Shown here one piece after another: positions 36,032 through 43,281 of a stretch of 64,000 nt of DNA. The stretch is from Lachnospiraceae bacterium oral taxon 500 (lineage in GTDB: Bacteria; Bacillota; Clostridia; Lachnospirales; Vallitaleaceae): the NCBI GenBank assembly GCA_002999035.1, contig CP027241.1, positions 3,114,195-3,178,194 of the forward strand. The letters run 5' to 3'. Every line of letters begins with the position of its first letter. Positions within the stretch are counted from its first letter, which is position 1. The position numbers were made by a program, and so were the translations under genes. The notes under the pieces are model-generated. The model saw only the letters and a list, made by a program, of their open reading frames with translations, was not told the origin of the DNA and did not search any database.

Positions 36032-36823
36032 CTATATCCCGATCAGCCCCTGCGCCTGACAATAATGGTATACCCCATCTTCCGCCACATGGCCGCAAAT
36101 ATCGGCGGCAACAGCCTTTAACCGGTCAGAGGCATTCGTCATTGCAATCCCCGCTCCTACCGCCTGAAACATTTCAATATCATTGTCCCAATCACCAAAG
36201 GCCAGCGCCTGCGACCGGCTTAAATGATAATATTCCAGCACTTTTTTGACACCCGTTCCTTTTCCGCTGTCCGCGGGGACAACATCAATCACCCGCTCCC
36301 ACCAGGCAGTGATCTTGGCGGAATGAACGTTCCTCATCAGCGCCGCGTATTCGGTTTCCGCGCAGCCCAGCATGATTTGATAAACCTGATCGTGACTCAG
36401 CACTTCCGCAAAATCATCCGCCACCCTGACACTCAGCTTGGCGGCAGCGTAATACCCCGCCAAATCCTGATCCTTTCCATTGGCAATGATCTTCTCCTTG
36501 GTAGCGATCGCCGCCGGGCGACCGAGCGCCGTGGCGTTTTTAATGATTGTTTTGACATCGCCTGATGAAATGGAGCGGCTGAAAATATCCCGCTCCTTGC
36601 GATAACAGTACGAGCCGTTAAAAGTCAAAAACACATCCGCCTCGACCCCCTCAAAGTGCGGCAGGTTCCAAGGCGCTCTGCCCGTGGCCAGACAAATCAG
36701 AATCTTTCTTTCCTTTAATTTGGCCAGTGTTTCAAGGATCGCTGCAGAGGGATGTTTTCGGTTCCCGTCAAGCAGCGTGCCGTCAATATCAAAAAAAATA
36801 ATCTTTACATCACTTAAGTCCAT
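36032..36823 (-). CDS. Cof-type HAD-superfamily hydrolase
   Basis: A 263-aa phosphatase of the HAD IIB type. Motif I FFDIDGTLLDG (about 10-20), motif II as CLATGRAPW, and motifs III-IV around KGTGVKKVLE and FGDWDNDIEMFQAVG are present. It would remove phosphate from a sugar phosphate, flavin or nucleotide; the substrate is unknown. The gene is single and lies just downstream of the STM401x cluster in the same direction, without overlap. Confidence 0.88.
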   Translation of the reverse strand: MDLSDVKIIFFDIDGTLLDGNRKHPSAAILETLAKLKERKILICLATGRAPWNLPHFEGVEADVFLTFNGSYCYRKERDIFSRSISSGDVKTIIKNATALGRPAAIATKEKIIANGKDQDLAGYYAAAKLSVRVADDFAEVLSHDQVYQIMLGCAETEYAALMRNVHSAKITAWWERVIDVVPADSGKGTGVKKVLEYYHLSRSQALAFGDWDNDIEMFQAVGAGIAMTNASDRLKAVAADICGHVAEDGVYHYCQAQGLIGI

Positions 36824-36945: not shown

Positions 36946-38448
36946 TTATTGAGCATGGGAGAGTTTCGTGATCAGCGGCAGCTGCCCGGCGTTTAAGGCA
37001 TAATACGCCTGACTTGCCAATTCCGGCTGATGAAGCGGTACGGCTGTATAGGGAAAACTTTGCAGCAACTCTTTATCCTGCGGATTATCCGTCATAATCA
37101 AGATATCCTCTTTTGACCAGCCGCTTCCTGCCATAATCCTCTCAATCCCGCCGCACTTGGAAGCCGGCATCGCCTGAAAATAAGTACGGCTGCCATACTC
37201 CCGCCGCCGCAGCGGTGTTTCTCCCAGCTGCCGGGCGACTACCGTCGGCATTTGCAGCCGCAGCAGTTCGCCTTTAAAAAACTGCGGCTTTATTCTTCCG
37301 GCCATACTGATCCAGTTTTCTTCCGACATCGGCATTTGCTCTGTCCGGCTGACAATCGGCCATGTCATTTCCAGTCCGCTGTCCCGGTCAATGACGTATG
37401 CTCCGTCAAAAAACACGCCGCCACTGAAAAAGCGGTAAGTCCTGCCCAGTGCCCGCCGAACCGAAGAAACACTTCGCGCCGTTGCCAAATACAGACGGCA
37501 GCCGGCACTTAAAGCCGCAAGCAGTTCCGGCAATCCCGCCAGCAGGCGGCCGTTTTCCGTCAGCACCCCGTCAAAGTCCAAAAAAATCGCCTGCCATTGC
37601 CGCTTCTGCGGAATCCGAAACACTCTGTTTGCTCCGAAAAAGTGGGCCAGCGGATTACCGGCAAAATTAGAATAACCCAAATAGCAATCGCATAGCCGAT
37701 GATTATGACAGAGCTGCCCCTTCCTTTTTTCACCTTTTTGAAAAAAACAACCGGGCCTGACCATGCCCCTATCCAGATATTGATTTTCTGCCGCCAGACA
37801 GCGGCGAAAGCCCGCCCCGCCGGAGGCTTTTTGCCGGCACAAGGCAAACTCATAGCCAAACATTGGGTCAATCGCCCGCAAACGCTCGATTACTTCCCGG
37901 GAAAATGCTGCTTTGCGTCGATCCATAGCATTTAGCCATAAATAAATCGACGGCGGCAGCTCAGCTCGAAGCGCTCGAATTTCGTCCTCATTCTCAAGCG
38001 TTGCCACCATCCCGGCCGCAATTTCCACTTCCGCCGCCAACTGCTTAAGCCTATCCAAAAAGCCCGCCCGGCTGGTCATCTCCGGGTGATAGCTTGCCCA
38101 TAACCGAATTTTACCGGTATCGCCCCGCTGCCGCAGCAGCCGCAAAAAGTCCTCCGGCTCCCAGCTCAAATTGGTTTGAATCCCAACCGCCCGCACCTGC
38201 GGCAGCGCCGATAAATCCGCCAAAACCGCCTGATACATAGGATAAATCATCCCCTCGCCATAGGGCAAAAAGAAAATCTGAACCGCTTCTGTCTGCCGGC
38301 GAATTTGCTCATAAAACCGGCGCAGGCCGTCCTCCTCCCGCCGCATTTCCTCTCTGCTGCCGCTCCCTTTTGCAAACGCACAGTAAGAACAGCGGTAATT
38401 ACAGGACTTGATAAAACCTCGATAATAAATGGTCTTTATTTTTTCCAC
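36946..38448 (-). CDS. STM4011-family radical SAM protein fused to a HAD-like domain
   Basis: A 500-aa protein. Residues 1-280 match STM4011-family radical SAM proteins: YYRGFIKSCNYRCSYC with C16, C20 and C23 (CX3CX2C), PYGEGMIYPMY, and late cysteines C234, C247, C253 and C255 that may hold another cluster. Residues 285-490 form a HAD-type domain starting FLDFDGVLTENGR (D291, D293), with LYLATARSVSSVRRAL and a late TDNPQDKELL. Family members I know are about 290 aa, so the fusion is notable. The start codon is GTG with a weak ribosome site. It is the last gene of the STM4015-4011 unit, separated from STM4012 by a tandem repeat. Confidence 0.82.
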   Translation of the reverse strand: MEKIKTIYYRGFIKSCNYRCSYCAFAKGSGSREEMRREEDGLRRFYEQIRRQTEAVQIFFLPYGEGMIYPMYQAVLADLSALPQVRAVGIQTNLSWEPEDFLRLLRQRGDTGKIRLWASYHPEMTSRAGFLDRLKQLAAEVEIAAGMVATLENEDEIRALRAELPPSIYLWLNAMDRRKAAFSREVIERLRAIDPMFGYEFALCRQKASGGAGFRRCLAAENQYLDRGMVRPGCFFQKGEKRKGQLCHNHRLCDCYLGYSNFAGNPLAHFFGANRVFRIPQKRQWQAIFLDFDGVLTENGRLLAGLPELLAALSAGCRLYLATARSVSSVRRALGRTYRFFSGGVFFDGAYVIDRDSGLEMTWPIVSRTEQMPMSEENWISMAGRIKPQFFKGELLRLQMPTVVARQLGETPLRRREYGSRTYFQAMPASKCGGIERIMAGSGWSKEDILIMTDNPQDKELLQSFPYTAVPLHQPELASQAYYALNAGQLPLITKLSHAQ

Positions 38449-38484
38449 GACATTACTCTCAACTTTCTCAATCTATCTGCTGTC

Positions 38485-38643
38485 CTTGCTGCAATACCAC
38501 TTGCCCATCCATCTGCCGCCCTTGCTGCAATACCACTTACCCATCCATCTGCCGCCCTGCTGCAATGCCACTTGCCCATCCTGCCGCCCTTGCTGCAATG
38601 CCACTTACCCATCCATCTGCCGCCCTTACCGCAATGCCAACGG
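38485..38643. repeat. 36-bp minisatellite, about 4.5 units
   Basis: Units start at 38485, 38521, 38557 (shortened to 32 bp), 38589 and a partial one at 38625. Each has CTGCAAT(A/G)CCACTT(A/G/)CCC and ATCCATCTGCCGCC in part. Frame is lost in the short unit, so I treat it as non-coding. It fills the gap between the STM4012 stop and the STM4011 start. Confidence 0.85.
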
Positions 38644-38690
38644 AATTGGTTTTCTCTGCCTACGGTTTTAATGAACTTTTGGCTCTGATA

Positions 38691-39947
38691 TCATTGAAAC
38701 ATCGGTCCGATGTAATCAGACAGCGACATTCCCTGCTCGGTCAGGTAAAAACGGCCATTTTCCCGGCTGACCCATGCCCTCTCCTCTAAATCCCGAAGCA
38801 GCGGAAAATCGGCAGTCAGCTCCGCCGCAAACCGTCGCCGGTAGTCAGCCTCCGACAGGCCGGTATAATACAAAATATTTTTAATCACATAACGCCGCTT
38901 CTGTTGTATTTCCGACAGATGCGCCATTGATAAGCCCCTTAAAAAATCAGTTTTCTGTAAATATCGCTGATATTCGGCCGAACAAGCCGCCTGCCCGGCG
39001 ACATAGGGTTCACAAAAATGCAGTTCCTGAAAATAACTGCGGCCGCCGCAGCCCAGCGCCAGCGTGTTTTCAAAGCCGCAGTCGGCATGGTCATCCGTTT
39101 CCGCCAGCCGGCTGAAACAACGCATTGACTTTTGGCGGTAGCCGTTTGCCTTTAAAAACCGGCTGCCAATCCGGTACAACTCATATTTTTGGCGGCTGTG
39201 TGCCTCATCGATCGGAAACTTATGATAAAGGCCGGCATTTGGCTGATTATATAGGGGATAAAGAAAAATTTCCTGCGGTTGATACGCTTCCGCCCGCTCC
39301 AACGAATCGCGCCAGCTCGCCTCGGTCTGACCGGGAATGCCATAAATCAAATCCAGATTTAAAACCGGAAAATCCGCCTGCTTCGCCAGTCGAATCGCAT
39401 GATGCGCCAACTCCGGCTCCGCCCGCCGCTCAATCATTTTTAATTCTCCGGCCTGAAAGGACTGAATGCCAATGCTCAGCCGCTTTAGGTTTTTCGCCTT
39501 TAAAAAATCCAGCTTTTCCGGTGTAATCTCCGCCGGCGAACTTTCTATCACCGAAAAAACCTCCGTCGGCTCCACCTGATATTCCTCTTCGGCCAAAGCA
39601 AATAAAAGCGCCAGTTCCTTAACATCCAGCAGCAGCGGCGTACCGCCGCCGAAAACCAAGGAAGAAAAGCGCGTCCGGCTAAAATCAATCTCTGCTTTCA
39701 TTTGGGCGCTGTGCCGCCGAATGGCCTGAATATATTCCAGATAGCTTTCCGCCCGCACTCCGGTCAGCGAAAATAAGTTACAGTAGCCGCATTTGACCCG
39801 GCAAAAGGGAATATGAAAATACAGCCCCATATCCGTACCGGCAAAGGCATCGCGATAGGCCGCCAAATCCAGCCGCTCCACCGGCTGATATGTCGATTTA
39901 TGCGGATAGCTGTACATATATTGCTGATAAATTTCCGTGTAATTCAT
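38691..39947 (-). CDS. STM4012-family radical SAM protein (HemN-like)
   Basis: A 418-aa protein resembling coproporphyrinogen III oxidase-type radical SAM enzymes. YFHIPFCRVKCGYCN gives CX3CX2C (about C49, C53, C56), with FGGGTPLLL, SIGIQSF and LNLDLIYGIPGQT as in HemN-like proteins. A C-terminal winged-helix-like part ends RFYLTEQGMSLSDYIG. The order beside STM4011- and STM4013-like genes identifies the family. ATG at 39947 is chosen; a TTG 12 bases earlier would touch the ribosome site. It is unlikely to be a haem enzyme; the substrate is unknown. Confidence 0.87.
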   Translation of the reverse strand: MNYTEIYQQYMYSYPHKSTYQPVERLDLAAYRDAFAGTDMGLYFHIPFCRVKCGYCNLFSLTGVRAESYLEYIQAIRRHSAQMKAEIDFSRTRFSSLVFGGGTPLLLDVKELALLFALAEEEYQVEPTEVFSVIESSPAEITPEKLDFLKAKNLKRLSIGIQSFQAGELKMIERRAEPELAHHAIRLAKQADFPVLNLDLIYGIPGQTEASWRDSLERAEAYQPQEIFLYPLYNQPNAGLYHKFPIDEAHSRQKYELYRIGSRFLKANGYRQKSMRCFSRLAETDDHADCGFENTLALGCGGRSYFQELHFCEPYVAGQAACSAEYQRYLQKTDFLRGLSMAHLSEIQQKRRYVIKNILYYTGLSEADYRRRFAAELTADFPLLRDLEERAWVSRENGRFYLTEQGMSLSDYIGPMFQ

Positions 39948-40080
39948 ATTCAAACTCAACTCTCCAAGCGAAAAGGCGCAGCCTTTTTCGCGAACCTACC
40001 AAGCTTTCACGCGGCGCGCGACCGCTTAAAAGACTTGTTCTGTTCTTATCGTTACAAACTGCCAAAACATCCCCCTCGCA

Positions 40081-41031
40081 CTAAAGCTCCGTTTGCAGTT
40101 GCTTGCCATCAGGTAGTGATGCCGCATATCCATTGGGCGCAGCCCCACGGTCAGGCTGCCAGCTTCCCGCTTTGATCGTGCAATGCTTATACGGTACGGT
40201 ATAAACAATCTCATGCGACAGGCAATGGAAATGATAGCCATCCTCGCCGTAGCAAGTGCCATGATCCGAACAAATAATATAAAAGGTATCGCCCCGGCGG
40301 CCAAACACATCAAACAGCCGCGGCAGGCGGGCATCCACATAGCGAAGCGCCGCCGCATGGGTTTTGACATTATCTTCTTTGGCGCCCGGCAGATAAAAAG
40401 AATTGGGATAATGAATACTGTCAACATTGATATACAAAAATACTTTTTTATCCGGCTCTTGCCTCTCCAGCCGCTGTTCCAGCCAGTCCAGCTGATGGTC
40501 AAAACTTTCCTTGATATGACAGGAAAACGCCGTCCGCCAGACCGATTCCATAAAAAAACCGGGCAAAATCCGGTTAATTTCCGTGCGCTTATTAAAAAAG
40601 CCGACCCCGCCCAAACAAATCGTCTGATAGCCGACTTTTTCCAGGCCCCGGATAAAGCTGTCGCCTTCAAACACAAAGGAATAGGGGTGAATTTTACCCA
40701 AACTTTTATTTTCTCTGGCCACAAATAAACGCTCTCTTTCGTAGAGCGGAACCGGCTCGGCCGGTGAGGGGAGATTCCCGATAAACATCGCCATGTGCGA
40801 GGGAAAGGTATAATTACCGGGGGCGTGGCGCTTCTGCCAGCCGCCGCACCGGTTCAAATTGGGCGTACCGCCGTTTTCCTGCTCCTGCATCGCCACATCA
40901 TAGCGAAGCGTATCCAAACATAAAAAAACAATGTCATGGCTGCCCACAATCCGATTCATATCAACGCTCATCTGCGCTTTCTGCGGATCACCAATCACAA
41001 ACTTCGGCACCTCGGTTACTGTTCTATTCAT
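40081..41031 (-). CDS. STM4013/SEN3800-family sulfatase-fold hydrolase
   Basis: A 316-aa protein of the alkaline phosphatase/sulfatase superfamily. The metal ligand D40 in DIVFLCLDTLRYDVA, a likely nucleophile T75 in NYTFPSHMAMF, and the second metal group CSDHGTCYGEDGYHFH (D256, H257, H267, H269) are visible. With Thr rather than Cys/Ser in CXPXR it should not need formylglycine, so the anSME in this window is probably unrelated; phosphodiester or phosphonate chemistry is more likely. The start at 41031 has only a weak ribosome site; starts at 40971 or 40959 would fit the family N-terminus as well. Confidence 0.85.
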   Translation of the reverse strand: MNRTVTEVPKFVIGDPQKAQMSVDMNRIVGSHDIVFLCLDTLRYDVAMQEQENGGTPNLNRCGGWQKRHAPGNYTFPSHMAMFIGNLPSPAEPVPLYERERLFVARENKSLGKIHPYSFVFEGDSFIRGLEKVGYQTICLGGVGFFNKRTEINRILPGFFMESVWRTAFSCHIKESFDHQLDWLEQRLERQEPDKKVFLYINVDSIHYPNSFYLPGAKEDNVKTHAAALRYVDARLPRLFDVFGRRGDTFYIICSDHGTCYGEDGYHFHCLSHEIVYTVPYKHCTIKAGSWQPDRGAAPNGYAASLPDGKQLQTEL

Positions 41032-41078
41032 TGATTTTTCCCGCTGTCTTTCTTGTTTTCATCTGTTTTGCCTGTCTT

Positions 41079-42092
41079 TCAGCCCTTCCATGCTTCCAGT
41101 TCCTGTACCTGCCGGCGGTAAATCCGGTTTTCTGCATAAATATCCTGATACAGTAAATCGCCCTGCGCGTTGATTTCAATAATCATTGGCTTGCCGGCTT
41201 TGGTTAATAAAATGTCGAATCCGGCCGAGTGCAGCCCCGGAAAAAGAGCACAGGCCCGGCCGCACAAATTGGCAATTTCTTCTTTGAGCCCAGCTGTCAA
41301 AGCCACATCCGCCAAAGACAGCGGCAAGTTATTTAAATGCAGATTCGTAATCGCTCCGCCTCTTGCCCCGCGCGGCTGGATAAAATCCACCCGGCCGAAC
41401 TGATACATCACCCGCAGGTCATAAACCACGCCGTTTTGAGCTGCTTTGGGCACCCACTGCTCCACCAGCGCGCCGCCGGCCAGCAAAAAATCCGCTGTTT
41501 TTTGAATGACTGCTGCATCCGTTATCGTTCGGAGCTTTTTGGTATTAAAATATTCGCCGTTTTCTTCCAGCATAGCGGTTTGCGCCGTATAGCCCGCCCG
41601 CTGCGGATGCAGCTTTAAAGCCAGCACGCCGGCCGCACCCGAGCCGAAATTGGATTTAATAAAAACCTGAAAAATGCGCCTTTCTCTTAAATAAGAAATA
41701 AGCGCAGCAAATCCGCCGCCGGAAAACTCCAGCAGCGGAGTCGCGGCGATTCCCGCCGATAGGAGCCCCCGCTTACAAAGCCGCTTATCCAGCGTATCAC
41801 CAATCGCCGCCGGAGTATTCAGAAAGGAAAGCCCTTGCTCTTTGCCCCGACGGCTAAGTTCCTCTAATTTTTGATAATAATTTTTTATCAGCGGAGTCAG
41901 CGCCGCAATTCGGCTATCCGTCCACCTCGGCGGGTCAATCTTCAGCCGGTCGCCCGACTGCAGTGCCGCCAAGCCCTGCTCCCACTCGGCCTCAATATCA
42001 AAAAACCGAAGTGGAATCCCCGCCGCCTGACAGGCCTTGGCAAAATAAATCTGCCTTTTGCTACCGCTTTGGCCAAAAAGTATCAGCGCCAT
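41079..42092 (-). CDS. STM4014-family ATP-grasp-like protein
   Basis: A 337-aa protein. ATP-grasp features are seen in VFIKSNFGSGAAGVLAL (about 143-159, lysine and glycine-rich loop), VEQWVPKA and the late metal and phosphate site PMIIEINAQGDLLYQ. ATP-grasp enzymes join an acyl phosphate to an amine or thiol, so it may ligate the product of the cluster. The start overlaps the STM4015-like stop (TAATG), giving tight coupling. Confidence 0.82.
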   Translation of the reverse strand: MALILFGQSGSKRQIYFAKACQAAGIPLRFFDIEAEWEQGLAALQSGDRLKIDPPRWTDSRIAALTPLIKNYYQKLEELSRRGKEQGLSFLNTPAAIGDTLDKRLCKRGLLSAGIAATPLLEFSGGGFAALISYLRERRIFQVFIKSNFGSGAAGVLALKLHPQRAGYTAQTAMLEENGEYFNTKKLRTITDAAVIQKTADFLLAGGALVEQWVPKAAQNGVVYDLRVMYQFGRVDFIQPRGARGGAITNLHLNNLPLSLADVALTAGLKEEIANLCGRACALFPGLHSAGFDILLTKAGKPMIIEINAQGDLLYQDIYAENRIYRRQVQELEAWKG

Positions 42093-42955
42093 TACTCGGT
42101 CAGCATCGGAAAACGATAAATATAGCCATCATCCTCATCAATATCGGTTTCCTGCGGATCATCCAGCACAAACGGCAGACCGGTAGCTTTTAGGCGCTCC
42201 ATCATTTCATCACTTAAAAAATGATAGGTCAAGTCAATTTTTTTGAGGTTCTTCAGCTTATCCTTCGCATCCAGCAAAAGCTGACCACCCTGATCCGTCA
42301 GCGTGCCGTTGGAAAAATCCAAAACCTCCAAGCGCAGCAGCGGCAGCACTTCCAGTACTGCTTCGACCACCTCGTCCTGCCATTCGCTGTCGCCCAGCCC
42401 CAAATAAGTCAACTGCCGCATCAACGGACTATGCAGCAAGGTCTTAACATCTTCAATGCCGCCGTCAAAGCCGTATTCCTCGACTCCCAAATAAAGATTC
42501 AGCTTGGTCAGTGCCGGCAATTCTGCCGCAGCCAGTTCATGCAGCACATTTTTGGGCAGTCCCCCGCAAATAATCTCAATTTCCTGCAAAGCCGCATGGC
42601 GAACCTTACCCAGGCTCAAGCCCACGCTGCCCTTAATCGTCAGCTTCTCCAAACCCGGCAGCGCCGCCAGCAGTTCTTCATAATTCCCCTGCTCAATCCA
42701 GGAAACCTCACATTCCTCATAATCCATATCGCCGATAAACAGGCTTTTTAAATGCCGCAGCTTATCTGCGTTGGCCGTGAACTCATCCAGCAGGCTTTGA
42801 ACCGAATTATCATAGGATTCGCCCCAGCAGCCAATCACCAACTCATCCAAATCCGGCAGATCTGAATCAGCCAGCACCTCCTGTGCCAAAGTCAGCGCAT
42901 CCTTTTCTCCGCTCTCATAATCGTCATAATCATAAAAAAACTTTTCGCTTCTCAT
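42092..42955 (-). CDS. STM4015-family leucine-rich-repeat-like protein
   Basis: A protein of about 287 aa with repeated L-x-x-L-x-(I/L) segments, such as LPGLEKLTIKGSVGLSLG (about 100-117), LTKLNLYLG, LTYLGLGDSEW and LEVLDFSNGTLTDQG. An acidic N-terminal part and an acidic C-terminal tail (DIDEDDGY) flank the repeats. It matches STM4015 by repeat type and by position as the first gene of the cluster. It may be a scaffold for the enzymes. Of two adjacent ATGs the second (42955) has the better spacing to AAAGGA. Confidence 0.78.
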   Translation of the reverse strand: MRSEKFFYDYDDYESGEKDALTLAQEVLADSDLPDLDELVIGCWGESYDNSVQSLLDEFTANADKLRHLKSLFIGDMDYEECEVSWIEQGNYEELLAALPGLEKLTIKGSVGLSLGKVRHAALQEIEIICGGLPKNVLHELAAAELPALTKLNLYLGVEEYGFDGGIEDVKTLLHSPLMRQLTYLGLGDSEWQDEVVEAVLEVLPLLRLEVLDFSNGTLTDQGGQLLLDAKDKLKNLKKIDLTYHFLSDEMMERLKATGLPFVLDDPQETDIDEDDGYIYRFPMLTE

Positions 42956-43281
42956 CATTTTCCTTTCCGGCGAATCTGCCTGTCTGTCTTTGACTTAGCT
43001 TTCCCTTGCCCGAAAACCGTGCTTTCAGCCAGGGCGGGTATGTATGGTCTATGCTTTCGGCCGGCGGCATCGTAATTTCCCGTTGTCTCCCCGCCGACCT
43101 AATCATCCGCCATGTTTTATTTTCCCTACGAAAAAATATACCCTGCCGGACAGGCTTTGTCAATGAGTTCCTTACTCAATTTTTATTTTTTCTTTTTACC
43201 GAAAAGCTCAAAGCCCGTTTTGCTTTGAGCTGAAAGGTTTGTTAAAAATCATCGTTCATCGCCGGACCTTCTGTTAACAAT
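42956..43281. other. Non-coding gap upstream of the STM401x unit
   Basis: Contains a decayed family A-like stretch (TTAGCTTTCCCTTGCCCGAA, about 42996-43015) and a terminator at 43205-43231. I see no clear promoter for the STM401x unit on the minus strand, so it may start within this gap or upstream of the membrane protein. Confidence 0.4.
43205..43231 (-). terminator. Terminator behind the membrane protein gene
   Basis: AGCTCAAAGC and GCTTTGAGCT form a perfect 10-bp stem, followed by TTTTC when read on the minus strand; the stop codon at 43282 is 50 bases upstream. Confidence 0.65.

Follow-up and report, generated by a model that had tools for sequence, protein, structure and literature searches.

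The STM4011 to STM4015 gene cluster

In the 64-kb stretch of Lachnospiraceae bacterium oral taxon 500 DNA analysed here (the window), five adjacent genes on the minus strand, at 36946-42958, encode members of the STM4011 to STM4015 families, and the question is what these proteins do together. STM401x proteins are annotated across many genomes without function. A search confined to the open literature found no functional study of their genes, which bears out the view of an earlier note on this DNA that no pathway had been assigned. The same note suggested that an ATP-grasp protein and two radical S-adenosylmethionine (SAM) enzymes jointly modify a small molecule or peptide, and it singled out a HAD domain fused to one of the radical SAM enzymes. 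Our analysis supports the first idea and shows the HAD fusion to be nothing unusual for its clade. The new result worth following, and the best clue to a mechanism, is one that the note had missed: STM4015, a protein encoded next to a predicted ligase of the ArgX/LysX/RimK structural class, has an invariant glutamate at its C-terminus.

We re-read the window and scanned its proteins with NCBIfam and Pfam. In the order of transcription (STM4015, STM4014, STM4013, STM4012, STM4011), the features are:

42092..42958, minus strand: STM4015-family leucine-rich-repeat protein of 288 residues, the proposed carrier or substrate (NF038076, 318.7 bits, cut-off 275; homologue of 2RA8)
42095..42118, minus strand: C-terminal tail of STM4015, YRFPMLTE, with the terminal Glu codon GAG at 42095-42097
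41079..42092, minus strand: STM4014-family ATP-grasp protein, the proposed carrier ligase (NF038074, 275.4 bits, cut-off 175)
40081..41031, minus strand: STM4013/SEN3800-family hydrolase of the sulfatase/alkaline-phosphatase superfamily (NF038075, 374.9 bits, cut-off 250; Pfam Sulfatase)
38691..39959, minus strand: STM4012-family HemN-like radical SAM enzyme (NF006067, 461.3 bits, cut-off 380)
37606..38448, minus strand: radical SAM part of STM4011 (NF038073, 229.9 bits, cut-off 200, residues 6-280 only)
36949..37605, minus strand: C-terminal HAD-IIB (Cof-type) domain of STM4011 (PF08282, 21.1 bits; fold matches to HAD-IIB phosphatases)

All five proteins exceed the curated NCBIfam cut-offs, which confirms the families and the gene order read earlier from the sequence; none falls into an unrelated family. 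The coordinates, the strand and the coupling of STM4015 to STM4014, whose stop and start codons overlap as TAATG at 42092, also held on re-reading. Families and order are those of the NCBIfam STM4011–STM4015 cluster (NF038073, NF006067, NF038075, NF038074 and NF038076). The NCBIfam STM4011 model, however, spans only the radical SAM part, which is followed here by HAD-IIB, and the model names record neither a HAD as a sixth component nor the invariant STM4015 tail. The cluster had been called complete, and all five STM401x genes are indeed present, but the unit of Enterobacteriaceae has six genes, with a separate HAD gene overlapping STM4011.

Co-occurrence supports the functional link between these genes that the note had assumed. 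In a survey of 399 genomes of the phylum, which counted STM4011, STM4013, STM4014 and STM4015 and left out STM4012, each gene was found in eight genomes, and the eight were identical. The full set is kept even where the genes are scattered: in one genome (G325) they lie on three contigs, with STM4011 to STM4013 on C14, STM4014 on C77 and STM4015 on C176, and in two Eubacterium-like genomes the STM4014-STM4015 pair is apart from STM4013 to STM4011 with all members retained. The STM401x genes as one functional unit are thus supported.

The C-terminal glutamate of STM4015

The last residue of STM4015 was Glu in all 98 sequences collected, 95 of which are distinct (95/95; entropy 0). In the same loci, the last-residue entropy was 3.7 bits for STM4011, 3.3 for STM4012, 2.6 for STM4013 and 3.8 for STM4014. 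Four further actinobacterial sequences (Nonomuraea, Embleya), two E. coli alleles and the B. fragilis homologue of solved structure (PDB 2RA8, E 1.3e-60 to STM4015) bring the count to 102/102 distinct sequences, which span Bacillota, Bacteroidota, Actinomycetota, Deinococcota and Pseudomonadota.

In the alignment, most tails end with [YW]xx[AP]M[LI]TE. Within the set of 98 sequences, 95 distinct, the penultimate residue is Thr in 84 and otherwise Gly, Ser or Ala; these replacements occur in Actinomycetota, Deinococcota and Methylobacterium. The linker preceding the tail is variable and acidic, and the last 25 residues contain 30% D/E and 5% K/R, as compared to 18% and 9% in the remainder of the protein. 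The two E. coli alleles have VYM[HT]PMFTE in common, while the linkers before it are unlike.

The terminal Glu as a by-product of translational coupling was considered and rejected. The STM4015 stop is free of any overlapping start codon in 20 of 94 loci, and the STM4015 proteins of all 20 still end in Glu. STM4014 of E. coli RS571 starts 60 bp downstream of STM4015, and the STM4015 of G325, which has no adjoining cluster gene, ends in FTE. Both GAA and GAG, three stop codons and several Thr, Gly, Ser and Ala codons are used at the gene ends. With coupling excluded, and with Glu kept under both of its codons and three stops, the terminal residue is under selection at the protein level. Where STM4015 is duplicated, in Actinomycetota and Deinococcota clusters (L118, L120, L121, L122 and L125), every copy keeps the Glu.

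STM4014 and the proposed loading of the glutamate

In STM4014, the Lys residues that bind ATP and the metal ligands of the D/E-x-N pattern (K103, K146, D293, E306, which is Asp in six, and N308) are conserved in at least 87 of 94 sequences, one of which is incomplete. An AlphaFold2 model of the protein (predicted local distance difference test score, pLDDT, 90.7) was searched against the PDB. ArgX took ranks 1, 2 and 4, the first two in complex with LysW, and DdlB took rank 3. The top match was the ArgX:LysW complex 3VPB (E 6.5e-13). Also in the top 50 were LysX, RimK and the graspetide ligases PsnB and MdnC, and D-cycloserine synthetase was a close match as well. The model thus places STM4014 among predicted ATP-grasp ligases of the ArgX/LysX/RimK structural class, but, as the E-value margins are small, the search can assign a class without identifying the enzyme. 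LysW receives its amino acid at the C-terminal Glu, through the action of LysX or ArgX (PMC10433800; PMC9303977), and related carrier logic has been reviewed (PMC9303977).

Because a protein that always ends in Glu sits beside a ligase of the ArgX class, we propose that STM4015 is the centre of a modification system, in which its Glu would be loaded by STM4014 before radical SAM and hydrolase steps follow; we put the probability of this reading at about 0.4. Its more specific form, in which STM4015 would be a leucine-rich-repeat carrier of a new kind, with the two radical SAM enzymes reshaping the group tethered to it, is slightly more tentative. STM4015 would provide a leucine-rich-repeat scaffold, an acidic flexible linker and the C-terminal Glu. 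STM4014 would phosphorylate a carboxylate of this residue and couple an amine, probably an amino acid, to it. The HemN-like STM4012 and STM4011, with its probable auxiliary Fe-S cluster, may then alter the tethered group, and the sulfatase-fold STM4013, together with the HAD if present, may take off a phospho- or sulfo-group or pass it on. The product could be freed by a housekeeping peptidase or be retained on STM4015. The analysis itself establishes which genes belong together and co-occur, the terminal Glu, the intact active sites, the ATP-grasp fold class and how the HAD came and went; we infer that the Glu is loaded, in what order the steps run, what serves as substrate and what becomes of the product.

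The relation to LysW would be an analogy in mechanism, not membership. Like LysW, STM4015 has a C-terminal Glu on an acidic extension, and the best fold match of its partner is ArgX bound to LysW. On the other hand, LysW is a small Zn-binding protein that ends with EDWGE, whereas STM4015 is a leucine-rich-repeat protein of about 290 residues that ends with MLTE, MFTE, LGE (VALGE) or VSE and has neither the EDWGE end nor the Zn domain. The LysZ/Y/J/K enzymes are not found beside STM4015, which is accompanied by two radical SAM enzymes instead. What the system would have in common with the pearlin pathways is the idea that radical SAM enzymes act on a group which a ribosomal carrier bears at its C-terminus, but here there is no PEARL and no protease, and the ligase is an ATP-grasp enzyme (PMC9303977).

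Several observations weigh against the loading of STM4015. The fold search fails to separate ArgX (6.5e-13) from Ddl (1.5e-12) and the graspetide ligases (6.3e-12), and by sequence the best PDB match of STM4014 is a D-Ala ligase (2.3e-5). STM4015 is much larger than LysW and unrelated to it. Among the neighbours of about 80 loci, no precursor peptide, protease, exporter or regulator was a constant extra partner, and the sole constant sixth neighbour was the HAD. The cluster has no peptidase or constant exporter, unlike the LysW and pearlin routes, which need release, and the product would therefore be released by a housekeeping peptidase or stay on the protein. Lastly, strong conservation in the tail extends beyond the Glu, to the penultimate Thr and to the aromatic, Pro and Met positions, so that the tail could be a recognition motif.

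The tail may instead serve for docking or recognition only, with a free small molecule as the product; the ATP-grasp enzyme would then join two metabolites in the manner of D-Ala ligases, and STM4015 would hold the complex together. This would fit the common use of leucine-rich-repeat proteins as binding scaffolds and the nearly equal match of STM4014 to D-Ala-D-Ala and D-cycloserine ligases. However, docking does not usually require an exactly C-terminal carboxylate, and the stop codon comes right after the Glu in 102/102 sequences; we consider this explanation unlikely.

The conservation of about eight tail residues would also suit a graspetide-like system in which the tail is the peptide that becomes modified. 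STM4014 would then close an ester or amide, for example from Thr to Glu/Asp, the repeat domain would serve as the leader, and the radical SAM enzymes would change the conserved aromatic residue or the Pro/Met. PsnB and MdnC, ATP-grasp ligases that act on ribosomal peptides, are among the closest folds to STM4014. Yet Glu alone is invariant: Thr is replaced in the lineages given above, and Tyr/Trp, Pro and Met vary. Instead of the multi-residue Thr/Lys-Asp/Glu core of graspetides, STM4015 has a single invariant acidic residue, its last Glu, and the cluster is without a protease or exporter. A graspetide-like role thus seems quite unlikely.

Returning to the neighbours of the cluster, a MATE-type efflux gene adjoins several gut-bacterial clusters, though not most (L126 8152-9516, L045 5163-6527 and L089 5413-6762).

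The radical SAM enzymes and STM4013

The CxxxCxxC motif of the radical SAM enzymes is invariant in both STM4011 (93/93) and STM4012 (94/94). Five more Cys residues near the end of the radical SAM part of STM4011 (C217, C234, C247, C253 and C255 in the window protein) are conserved in 92-93 of 93 sequences and are candidate ligands of an auxiliary Fe-S cluster, though no SPASM model matched STM4011 in the NCBIfam and Pfam scans. The listed start codon of the window STM4012 is TTG, and its true start may be an ATG slightly inside the frame. Between STM4012 and STM4011, at 38471-38639, a 36-bp unit is repeated in tandem about 4.8 times, an array that occurs nowhere else in the genome; this repeat was ruled out as a precursor gene, as no reading frame in it is supported.

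In STM4013, D40, T75, H207, D256, H257 and H269 are invariant (97/97), and by comparison with the superfamily they are the candidate metal ligands and nucleophile. The formylglycine sulfatase motif C/SxPxR was not found, and the candidate nucleophile is Thr75 (97/97), in the context T[YFW]x[AS]H. Judged by these residues, STM4013 appears to follow the pattern of the Thr-nucleophile members of the alkaline-phosphatase superfamily, not that of formylglycine sulfatases. The window STM4013 extends about 30 residues beyond the usual end of the family (VPYKHxxL), at 40081-40180, probably by a small 3' change.

These three enzymes bear on one further explanation, in which STM4014 would act like RimK or a Pup ligase and, as a form of regulatory tagging, either add glutamates to STM4015 or conjugate STM4015 to another protein. 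STM4014 matches RimK weakly in sequence and also in fold, and Pup is likewise activated at a C-terminal Glu. Nevertheless, the two radical SAM enzymes and the sulfatase-fold hydrolase, which are constant companions, would be left unexplained, making such a role very improbable.

The HAD domain

STM4011 of the window has 500 residues, of which the NCBIfam match covers those up to 280, while residues 282-500 are HAD-IIB-like. This part scores 21.1 bits with Pfam PF08282 (gathering score 20.9) and 24.0 with TIGR01484, below its cut-off of 41.8. In an AlphaFold2 model of the full protein (pLDDT 88.2), the best PDB matches of the HAD part are Cof-type/HAD-IIB sugar phosphatases, including PfHAD1. 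The HAD motifs are intact, with DFDGVLT as motif I (DxD, D291/D293), T323 as motif II, K431 as motif III and D458 as motif IV; the nucleophile D291 and the motif-IV D458 are invariant among 26 sequences compared. Motifs and predicted fold agree with the earlier reading of a HAD at the C-terminus of the first radical SAM enzyme. A separate HAD gene in close relatives would have pointed to an artefact, but the closest relatives (Filifactor, two Peptostreptococcaceae, Anaerovirgula and Anaerophilus) carry the same fusion, which is therefore not due to a frameshift or misassembly.

The fusion, which had been taken as distinctive, is the common state in the surveyed clade. It was found in 71 of 93 loci, including those of Parabacteroides, B. 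finegoldii and Desulforamulus aeronauticus. These 93 loci comprise the 80 best STM4013-alignment matches to the window in genome contigs plus plasmid, viral and whole-genome loci, and a few genomes appear twice, so that the fraction is biased towards window-like loci and cannot be read as a frequency in the population. None of the Paenibacillus, Streptomyces, Deinococcus and Methylobacterium loci, the aerobic lineages sampled, has the fusion. A tree of STM4012 and STM4013 groups every fused locus into a single clade (100/100), within which the HAD was later lost about eight times, in anaerobes.

In E. coli RS571, the same five genes in the order STM4015 to STM4011, followed by a Cof-type HAD-IIB gene, form a six-gene block between ompL and typA; the HAD, fused in the window, is separate here and overlaps STM4011 by 4 bp. 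A Salmonella fragment (L152, OR850900.1) has a separate Cof-type HAD gene that overlaps STM4011 by 16 bp and is followed by typA. This fragment falls within the fused-HAD clade. By position, its HAD gene is presumably STM4010. The HAD is thus an old partner of its clade, either as a separate gene, in Enterobacteriaceae, or as a fused domain, in anaerobes.

The earlier note had read the fusion as the mark of a phosphatase or phosphomutase step and of a phosphorylated intermediate, a claim that concerns the HAD only and is compatible with the other readings. The HAD-IIB fold and the nucleophile Asp, retained in 71/71 fusions, are in its favour, as are the E. coli counts, in which STM4013, STM4015 and the Cof-type HAD were each found in 154 of 5,426 complete genomes (the overlap of HAD and STM4011 was read from one region, RS571). 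The HAD is, however, missing from the aerobic lineages sampled. The second motif-I Asp, usually the general acid/base of HAD enzymes, is replaced by Glu, Met, Gln, Ala, Val or Asn in 32 of the 71 fusions. Given these replacements and the repeated losses, the phosphatase step looks accessory; the replacements further suggest that a classical phosphatase step is not universal even in loci with the HAD domain. The fusion therefore says little about a required phosphorylated intermediate, and the view that it marks one is somewhat unlikely.

Another phosphatase as a stand-in for the missing HAD was rejected: one HAD-free cluster adjoins a PHP protein (L026) and another a histidine phosphatase (L059), but there is no consistent pattern. 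On the same strand as STM4011, and about 120 bp beyond its 3' end, the window also has a complete stand-alone gene for a Cof-type HAD-IIB protein (36032-36823, minus strand), which resembles the fused HAD only around motif I. Separate HAD genes also occur near the L107, L110, L113 and L055 clusters.

Spread and surroundings of the cluster

The cluster has likely moved by horizontal transfer, since two genomes of the same family (G000 and G017) carry clusters from different branches of the tree, one HAD-fused and the other HAD-free, and the remaining genomes sampled from that family are without it. STM4013 matches were found on Salmonella plasmids, and distant ones on Agrobacterium Ti plasmids. 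A distant STM4013 homologue (35-37%) in S. albidoflavus (L119 3860-7309) lies within a different operon, which also codes for a radical SAM protein, a thymidylate-kinase-like protein and a NUDIX hydrolase, and another was found in Kitasatospora (L124).

The search of viral contigs gave a single cluster locus. The cluster occurs in two records filed as phage or viral, L114 and the Salmonella fragment L152; since L152 continues into typA, it is evidently contaminating bacterial chromosome, not a phage gene set. A role in anti-phage defence was rejected, as the matches were weak and to general radical SAM models only.

Clusters of Methylobacterium, Streptomyces and Deinococcus are flanked by a DUF6745 (leucine-rich-repeat-like) protein and a protein of about 100 residues with the motif GDVL[IV]...GEVTGH[SA]H...HEEH, whose L118 copy matched no Pfam or NCBIfam model. 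This flanking pair lies at:

L116, 2489-3814
L117, 1785-3407
L118, 9045-10342
L120, 9025-10334
L121, 1168-2632
L123, 9040-10361

Implications

The invariant Glu beside an ArgX-like ligase narrows an orphan system to a single question for mass spectrometry, namely what is attached to STM4015. The six-gene ompL-typA block of E. coli is a tractable source of the protein, although a tag at its C-terminus is likely to prevent the reaction. Should the carrier reading be true, biosynthesis on carriers would gain a new type of scaffold in addition to LysW and the peptides of the pearlin routes, and the STM401x genes would represent a carrier-based biosynthetic or protein-cofactor system present in five or more phyla and, within E. 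coli, in 154 of 5,426 complete genomes.

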